Virus record (IMG/VR): IMGVR_UViG_3300025011_000038
Location: 1-64,000 of that record
Strand: one strand, 5' to 3'
From: a virus
Length of the DNA stretch: 64,000 nucleotides
The position numbers and the translations under genes were made by a program. Below the pieces are notes generated by a model. It was not told the origin of the DNA. It saw only the letters and a program-made list of their open reading frames with translations, and searched no databases. Positions within the stretch are counted from its first letter, which is position 1. Each line of letters begins with the position of its first letter. Positions 16,843 through 50,751 of this stretch are shown here, piece by piece.

Positions 16843-16980
16843 CTAGTCGCGTTCGCTTCGGGTCCAGTGTTCGCTTGCCTTGGCTGGCCCTTTCGGATAT
16901 GCCAACTTCGCCGGTTCGCGCTGTGGGGTTTCTGTATTCTGTTGGTCGGTTGTTGCTGTCGGTGCGCTGGCTGTCATCAT
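16843..16980 (-). CDS. possible small protein, Thr/Pro-rich
   Basis: A 45-residue frame starting MMTASAPTATTDQQNTE, low-complexity and polar. The open frame extends upstream over the end of the next gene, and no clear ribosome site precedes either start. Tentative. Confidence 0.3.
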   Translation of the reverse strand: MMTASAPTATTDQQNTETPQREPAKLAYPKGPAKASEHWTRSERD

Positions 16981-17024
16981 CAGAGCAGGTAGCCAATCCT
17001 GCTGACCGCCGAAGCGGTTTCGAC

Positions 17025-17267
17025 TTATATTTTTTCTTTCATCGGTACTAAGACTGCGCCGTTTTCCAGGTCGGGGTGGTAATCGTGCCAACTTTCGGTT
17101 ACTTTGTAATATTTGCCGTCCATCGTGACCACGTTCTGACCTCTGTGTAGTACTGGGATGTTCATTTCGTCTGTTACGTTCTCAAAAGGACGTTTGCGGC
17201 CTTCTTGTGGGTTCCAGTTTACCCGAACATCGTTACCTGCTGCTCTTTCAAATCTATTTCTTGCCAT
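17025..17267 (-). CDS. small protein of unknown function
   Basis: An 80-residue protein from the ATG at 17267 (MARNRFERAAGNDVRVNW), with AGGGGGAC upstream. It contains GQNVVTMDGKYYKVTESW, a beta-hairpin pattern. A TTG-initiated longer reading to 17381 would cover the intergenic hairpin and is less likely. Confidence 0.5.
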   Translation of the reverse strand: MARNRFERAAGNDVRVNWNPQEGRKRPFENVTDEMNIPVLHRGQNVVTMDGKYYKVTESWHDYHPDLENGAVLVPMKEKI

Positions 17268-17304
17268 TTGCGCGTCCCCCTCGTATTTAGTTTTACTTAC
17301 CACC

Positions 17305-17320
17305 TCTCCCCGGAGGGAGA
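17305..17320 (-). repeat. intergenic hairpin, family member 10
   Basis: A TCTCCC / GGGAGA stem with a 4-base loop, followed by the GTAAAACTAAATACGA motif that also precedes the first gene of the block at 17676. Confidence 0.5.
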
Positions 17321-17361
17321 ACGCTTCGGGCTTAAGGTTGTTTATACTCACCCGAATGAGT

Positions 17362-50316: not shown

Positions 50317-50716
50317 CAAAACTCCCCCAAGTGGAACTCAGGAGAGTTTTGACTGAATGATCTGAATAATACATTAGTCCGTTATTTTATCAGGGCCAAA
50401 GCCACGGCAAGATCATTCTTTCCGACACAAAACCATGGATTAAAGCCATGTTGCAGTAATGTCGGTTAAGCAGACTCCAAGAAGAAGGAACCCACACCTA
50501 TTTAGGGTGCTGCTATCTTTCAGATAACCTTCTTTAAACCTTGCGCTAGCCTGCTTAATATGCGCTTCTTGGATTATTTAATAAGCGGACAGGGATTTGC
50601 ACCCTGCATGATTATACCCAGCCAAGAGTATCTAAAAGACCTCTCGTGATAATCTTACCTCGTAAGCGTCTACATATTCCGCCACCGCTTATTGCATAGT
50701 TCAATTAGTTCCCGCT
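50317..50716 (-). ncRNA. large multi-domain structured noncoding RNA with tRNA-Leu-like 5' domain
   Basis: About 400 bases without a gene form five successive stem domains on the minus strand. D1 (50691-50582) closes with TAAGCGG/CCGCTTA and contains GTGGCGGAATATGTAGACGC, close to the D-arm of bacterial tRNA-Leu, and a T-arm-like CAGGG/CCCTG. It lacks a normal anticodon arm and has a 47-base arm closed by GATTAT/ATAATC. D2 (50572-50477) closes with CCAAGAAG/CTTCTTGG, D3 (50465-50422) with CCGACA/TGTCGG, D4 (50418-50355) with a 9-bp stem, and D5 (50351-50317) is terminator-like. A strong promoter stands just upstream. Size and location in a phage recall ornate RNAs such as ROOL or GOLLD. Confidence 0.6.
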
Positions 50717-50722
50717 TAGAAC

Positions 50723-50751
50723 ATTATACCACTTTCAACGCACAATATCAA
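50723..50751 (-). promoter_or_regulatory. leftward sigma-70-type promoter 1
   Basis: On the minus strand TTGATA (50751-50746), a 17-base spacer, and TATAAT (50728-50723), one mismatch from consensus overall. Transcription would start near 50716 and read the structured region. Confidence 0.85.

Follow-up and report, generated by a model that had tools for sequence, protein, structure and literature searches.

The principal finding of our study is that a structured noncoding region of a phage genome contains one representative of an RNA family widespread in phages, in which a top half resembling that of leucine transfer RNA (tRNA-Leu) encloses a core that varies greatly between phages. The region lies in the 64,000-nucleotide stretch analysed here (the window), which represents positions 1 to 64,000 of the 69,948-base IMG/VR virus record IMGVR_UViG_3300025011_000038; terminase and portal proteins encoded in the window indicate a tailed phage. 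A second contig carries the same sequence at 100% identity, and a BLAST search of the 500-base region against phages gave no match. It had been predicted from the letters alone that 400 bases, from 50317 to 50716, specify an ornate noncoding RNA of five consecutive stem domains, transcribed leftward from its own promoter and beginning with a domain similar to tRNA-Leu. The presence of a structured noncoding stretch was confirmed, its important part being the first domain, and the existence of the family to which this domain belongs appears to us practically certain.

Domain 1 (50691-50582; this and all other features of the locus are on the minus strand) consists of the acceptor stem, D-arm and T-arm of a tRNA-Leu-like molecule, and its pairing runs 2 base pairs (bp) further, to 50580-50693. 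On the basis of a geometry scan and of family covariation, the 5' strand of the acceptor stem, TAAGCGG, was placed at 50685..50691, where it pairs with CCGCTTA at 50588-50582. It is followed by TG and by the D-arm (50666..50682, geometry scan), GCG-GAATATGTAGA-CGC, the resemblance of which to that of tRNA-Leu had been recognized correctly. The T-arm (50589..50607; geometry scan and covariation) is composed of a 6-bp stem, GCAGGG/CCCTGT, and the loop TGCAAAT with G at position 55, whereas in normal tRNAs the T-stem comprises 5 bp and base 55 is U. Seven acceptor and six T-stem pairs thus form a 13-bp stack. Base 73 is T and no CCA is encoded, its addition after transcription being still possible. 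The anticodon and variable arms are replaced by a variable core of 58 nucleotides (nt) at 50608..50665, made of TTACGAGGTAAG and a 43-nt arm closed by ATTAT/ATAAT; in a finer division, the mini-hairpin TTACGAGGTAA (TTAC-GAG-GTAA) is followed by a G, the arm and CAT. The extra arm of 47 bases proposed earlier was therefore about right, and so was the lack of a normal anticodon arm, since domain 1 has no 7-nt anticodon loop and the mini-hairpin with its short loop occupies that place. ARAGORN reported no tRNA anywhere in the window, leaving no normal tRNA call that could account for the domain, and the tRNA models of Rfam gave no score in the region even in a lax search.

A single pattern, made only of D-arm and T-loop strings, has matches in at least 120 viral contigs. 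Among the 115 matches listed, read at fixed offsets and unselected for pairing, at least six of the seven acceptor pairs are formed in 85 elements, compared with 14 of 115 when the partners were shuffled, and the full 6-bp T-stem occurs in 102. When 53 elements were aligned, pairing was present in 98.7% of cells, compared with 75.0% in shuffled controls and no more than 45% in slid ones, and 12 of the 16 scaffold pairs show two-sided change; the covariation that had been proposed as a check on the stems was thus found for domain 1. As the aligned elements were chosen with a pairing filter, the geometry of the unselected 115 matches is the independent test. The whole element (50582..50691) scores 83.3 bits in the covariance model R1, among whose 53 training rows it is itself included. 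The two classes are separated by this model, in which family elements score about 50-90 bits and ordinary matches of the tRNA-Leu type about 38 bits or less; a few elements bearing very long cores or D-loop inserts fall in the latter range. The element of the window possesses the features defining the family, namely a covarying 7-bp acceptor stem, a 3-bp D-stem with an 11-nt loop, a 6-bp T-stem with TGCAAAT, and CAT before the T-stem. CCA is encoded in only one of 183 family elements, base 73 is mixed, and ARAGORN made no call for the elements checked in the window and related loci. There is also a subclass with an additional D-loop insert of 40-190 nt, GAATAGACA...TGGTAAA...GTAGA.

In the window and about 40 related loci, the elements gave no match to any Rfam 15 family, either at the gathering cut-offs or in a lax search. 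We found no description of the family in the literature, where coverage of subscription papers and preprints was thin, so that an earlier description is possible. The suggestion that the RNA may be new therefore holds for its first domain. The architecture, a constant tRNA top half with an exchangeable core, matches no family tested, although its parts are clearly derived from tRNA. With bacterial tRNA-Leu and phage tRNAs it shares the D-arm sequence, U8-G9, the elbow formed by the T-loop and D-loop, and a place in phage tRNA arrays; it differs in the missing anticodon loop and CCA, the mixed base 73, the 6-bp T-stem, G55 and a core of 27-214 nt. A 13-bp stack of acceptor and T-stem is also known from tRNA-Sec, where it is built as 8+5, whereas the element combines 7+6 with a D-arm of the tRNA-Leu type and no anticodon. 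Transfer-messenger RNA (tmRNA; RF00023) likewise has tRNA-like ends closing an inserted RNA, but in the family the full D-stem is kept, the G3-U70 alanine signal occurs in only 4 of 183 elements and the core length is not in frame; this identity was rejected, fragments matching the Rfam model with about 13 bits against a cut-off of 47. A coding frame is equally unsupported, the core lengths being spread over all three frames. A packaging RNA was also rejected: some elements lie near genes for the terminase small subunit, but others are found within tRNA arrays, among head genes or in lysis modules. Among man-made molecules, engineered tRNA scaffolds for aptamer display carry a payload RNA in place of the anticodon arm, and the element would be their natural counterpart. 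ROOL and GOLLD, phage RNAs of unknown function often found near tRNA islands (PMC12286853), had been named as candidate classes; their Rfam models gave no match at any threshold tried, whether gathering or expectation values (E) up to 5, and the element has only about 110 nt. Domain 1 is not the 5' end of an RNA of this kind, because it belongs to a widespread family of its own, usually without the other domains.

The core is the hypervariable part of these RNAs. The 183 unique elements fall into 144 core groups, most of them single; a TTAN(3-6)TAAG framework, as in the window, is present in 30 of the 183. Inside a core group, certain bases are conserved and compensatory changes occur. A T-arm-like string occurs inside five elements, compared with 0.27 expected. 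Sequence comparison demonstrated that cores are swapped within constant arms and flanks. Between loci L135 and L316 the flanks are identical at 0.96 and 0.95 and the arms at 1.00, the cores, which differ in length, at only 0.28, and phages phi3T and SPbetaL4 have the scaffold and both flanks in common and unrelated cores. At the same site, SPbeta and Goe14 carry an unrelated RNA, annotated in Goe14 as skipping-rope (31.3 bits in Rfam, below the cut-off of 36.7). Skipping-rope RNA (RF02924) resembles our element in being an orphan phage RNA and, in SPbeta-like phages, in the site that it occupies after yonN, but has no sequence or model similarity to it; its Rfam model found nothing in the region of interest, even with E as high as 5, or in the related tRNA-like elements searched. 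Conversely, related cores were demonstrated in phages that are unrelated but share a host. SPP1 and the Nitunavirus phages, which grow on B. subtilis but are not relatives, have cores and upstream hairpins about 85% alike, with acceptor stems that differ but are compensated; by inspection, these cores fit a pseudoknot, CCTC/GAGG crossing GTACGGG/CCCGTAC, with an inner CACG/CGTG hairpin. The 110-nt element of Lactobacillus phage Lenus is identical to that of another phage. In the array of clustered regularly interspaced short palindromic repeats (CRISPR) of Lactiplantibacillus plantarum EGD-AQ4 (locus L267, near 6733), one spacer matches the T-arm of an element at 31 of 33 positions, which shows only that DNA carrying the element was targeted in the past.

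The best explanation overall, which we credit about as much as we doubt, would be that of a tRNA-scaffold RNA with an exchangeable core, trimmed by host tRNA enzymes and directed through its core against a changing host target. At the level of sequence, comparison demonstrated the covarying scaffold, the hypervariable and exchanged core, the sharing of cores among phages of one host, the placement in tRNA arrays in some phages, and the loss of traits typical of a decoding tRNA (the anticodon loop and an encoded CCA are missing, base 73 is mixed, and the 13-bp acceptor/T stack and G55 are present). Transcription would proceed from an own promoter or within phage operons. Host tRNA-maturation enzymes recognize the acceptor, T and elbow region, and RNase P and RNase Z might use this part to trim and stabilize the element. 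The absence of an anticodon and of encoded CCA, together with G55 and the 13-bp stack, would keep it out of translation. The core could then be a phage-specific RNA that binds a host target undergoing rapid change, or acts as its decoy or inhibitor; a defence protein or an RNase would be the likeliest target. Host-correlated and rapidly exchanged cores suggest such a changing target, most plausibly in defence; nevertheless, the step in which the core acts against anti-phage defence is put forward tentatively. In the same way, we offer as a conjecture the wider proposal that phages of Bacillota possess a natural tRNA-scaffold display system, in which many unrelated folds may be swapped, each against a different host target and chiefly against anti-phage defence. 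Should the core prove to be a payload, a large store of exchangeable RNA effectors would exist in phages, testable in SPP1 and B. subtilis, and orphan phage RNAs found at the same sites (DUF3800-type, skipping-rope) would become linked.

Some observations weigh against this proposal. Genes of many kinds adjoin the elements, and none for defence or anti-defence recurs consistently among them. Promoter matches upstream of the elements are no commoner across the family than in shuffled sequences, a near-consensus promoter (11 of 12 positions) being found only in the window and at one other element. Hypervariability could also reflect relaxed constraint on the core. A rival view would make the element a processing or stability signal, either a site of RNase P cleavage or a cap protecting the transcript, with the core as unimportant filler. 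It would agree with the diversity of neighbours, with the occurrence of some elements within tRNA arrays and with the orientation of about three quarters of the downstream genes (123 of 166) in the direction of the element. However, filler would be neither conserved nor shared, while the core families keep conserved, covarying nucleotides, including apparent pseudoknots, and specific cores are common to unrelated phages of one host; we regard this view as unlikely.

It is also improbable, in our opinion, that the core, by binding a partner either specific to the phage or from the host, serves phage regulation or superinfection control and not the evasion of defence. Such a role would be in line with the different cores of closely related phages and with the proximity, in several phages, of genes for replication, terminase and head. 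A host target fits better with the fact that the same core is found despite different regulators, both in SPP1 and Nitunavirus and in Lenus and another phage of the L. plantarum type. That the elements are degenerate tRNA-Leu pseudogenes can hardly be maintained, even with their clear tRNA-Leu-like D-arm and the location of some of them within tRNA clusters. Most members share the derived G55, the 6-bp T-stem and CAT before it, a convergence not to be expected of genes in decay, and the stems show strong compensatory change, which rules this identity out.

A separate problem is whether the 400 bases constitute one continuous RNA. Domain 2 (50464..50555) turned out to be a known orphan RNA, DUF3800-VII (RF02967), with 68.7 bits against a gathering cut-off of 36.2, E 4e-12 in the window and a match to model positions 1-90 of 90. 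It is a separate family, which elsewhere is not part of the tRNA-like element. No gene for a DUF3800 protein was detected among the 17 window open reading frames, a part of all, that were scanned against Pfam, and a low-sensitivity search of 495 Bacillota genomes found no DUF3800-VII RNA. A strong 3' hairpin (50317..50351) folds better than all of 200 shuffles (z -4.3) and is a possible terminator, though its T tract is weak. Domains 3 and 4 have neither a homologue nor an energetic excess over shuffles (z -0.6 and +0.2), and the whole 414 nt gives z -2.3. Of the five predicted stem domains, therefore, the first is supported by covariation, the second by Rfam and the 3' hairpin by its folding energy, while one continuous five-domain RNA is unproven, since domains 3 and 4 do not surpass shuffled sequences. 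A single ornate RNA with the tRNA-like part merely as its 5' domain would be consistent with the one promoter, the lack of a clear terminator between domains 1 and 2 and the strong 3' hairpin. A related pairing was found only once: in what is probably a Paenibacillus phage, a DUF3800-VII match below threshold (28.5 bits) adjoins an element, the order being reversed. By contrast, DUF3800-VII was absent from all 36 further contigs picked for a possible tandem pair, and even a weak match was present in just one of 50 tRNA-like records. We consider such a single RNA rather doubtful. The original prediction was thus sound as to the structured phage RNA, the abnormal tRNA-Leu-like domain and the promoter, was unsupported as to the one five-domain RNA, and was incomplete in that domain 1 forms its own family and domain 2 was already known. 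As a side observation, CCAAGAAG in the linker (50575-50565) is complementary to CTTCTTGG within DUF3800-VII (50487-50474), an alternative pairing that could be due to chance.

The predicted promoter, TTGATA-17-TATAAT (50723..50751, read directly in the sequence), corresponds to the earlier claim of a near-consensus leftward promoter, with 11 of 12 consensus matches and TG before the -10 box; the -35 box occupies 50751-50746 and the -10 box 50728-50723. Transcription would be expected to begin at about 50716, which leaves some 25 nt ahead of the tRNA-like domain. The acceptor strand TAAGCGG is repeated in the leader (50716-50685), within a GTTC...GAAC hairpin, and could compete for CCGCTTA; such an upstream repeat was seen in only 2 of 180 elements of the family.

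This strongly supported family appears to have escaped annotation even in model phages, SPP1 and phi3T among them, since it is rejected by programs that search for tRNAs and has a middle part that defies alignment. The element lies between genes 9 and 11 in SPP1 and after yonN in phi3T. It is also present in Listeria phage LP-101, Lactobacillus phages Sha1, phiJL-1, Lenus and Satyr, Enterococcus phage phiSHEF16, Paenibacillus phage Pd_22F and the Herelleviridae Grass, SBSphiJ5 and BSP10; in none of these named phages is there an RNA annotation for it. Several elements sit within phage tRNA clusters: one phage has three in tandem directly ahead of tRNA-Met, another has one directly ahead of tRNA-Cys, and some phages carry up to five. 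Genome matches are nearly all from Bacillota. Frequencies obtained with R1, which are lower bounds from samples partly centred on genomes chosen as carriers and passed through a severe first-look filter, were 17 of 151 in Lactobacillaceae, 6 of 300 in Bacilli, 1 of 291 in Clostridia, 1 of 198 in Bacteroidota and 0 of 200 in the phylum of a Campylobacter bin. Where metagenome bins assigned to other phyla gave matches, misbinning may be the cause.

Other putative RNAs were noticed near some elements. In phi3T and SPbetaL4, about 1.0-1.3 kb separate the element from a DUF3800-VIII RNA (L243, 4363-4428; L480, 2447-2512). Just upstream of the element in phiJL-1 and Sha1 (the end of L186, and L245) there is a second tRNA-like element, which has a different D-arm, GGGCTAATTGGTAAGCT, and a T-loop of the TTCGAAT type and lacks an anticodon arm; it may represent another type of scaffold. 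The conserved stretch GGTTGTAAA...GGTTGACATC...TTAGTTTGACG upstream of the elements in L393 and L154 is probably another RNA domain. Elsewhere in the window, the Rfam search revealed a Pistol ribozyme (50.5 bits, 17298-17361, minus strand) and, about 270 bases away on the same strand, a type II hammerhead ribozyme (37.4 bits, 16965-17025).
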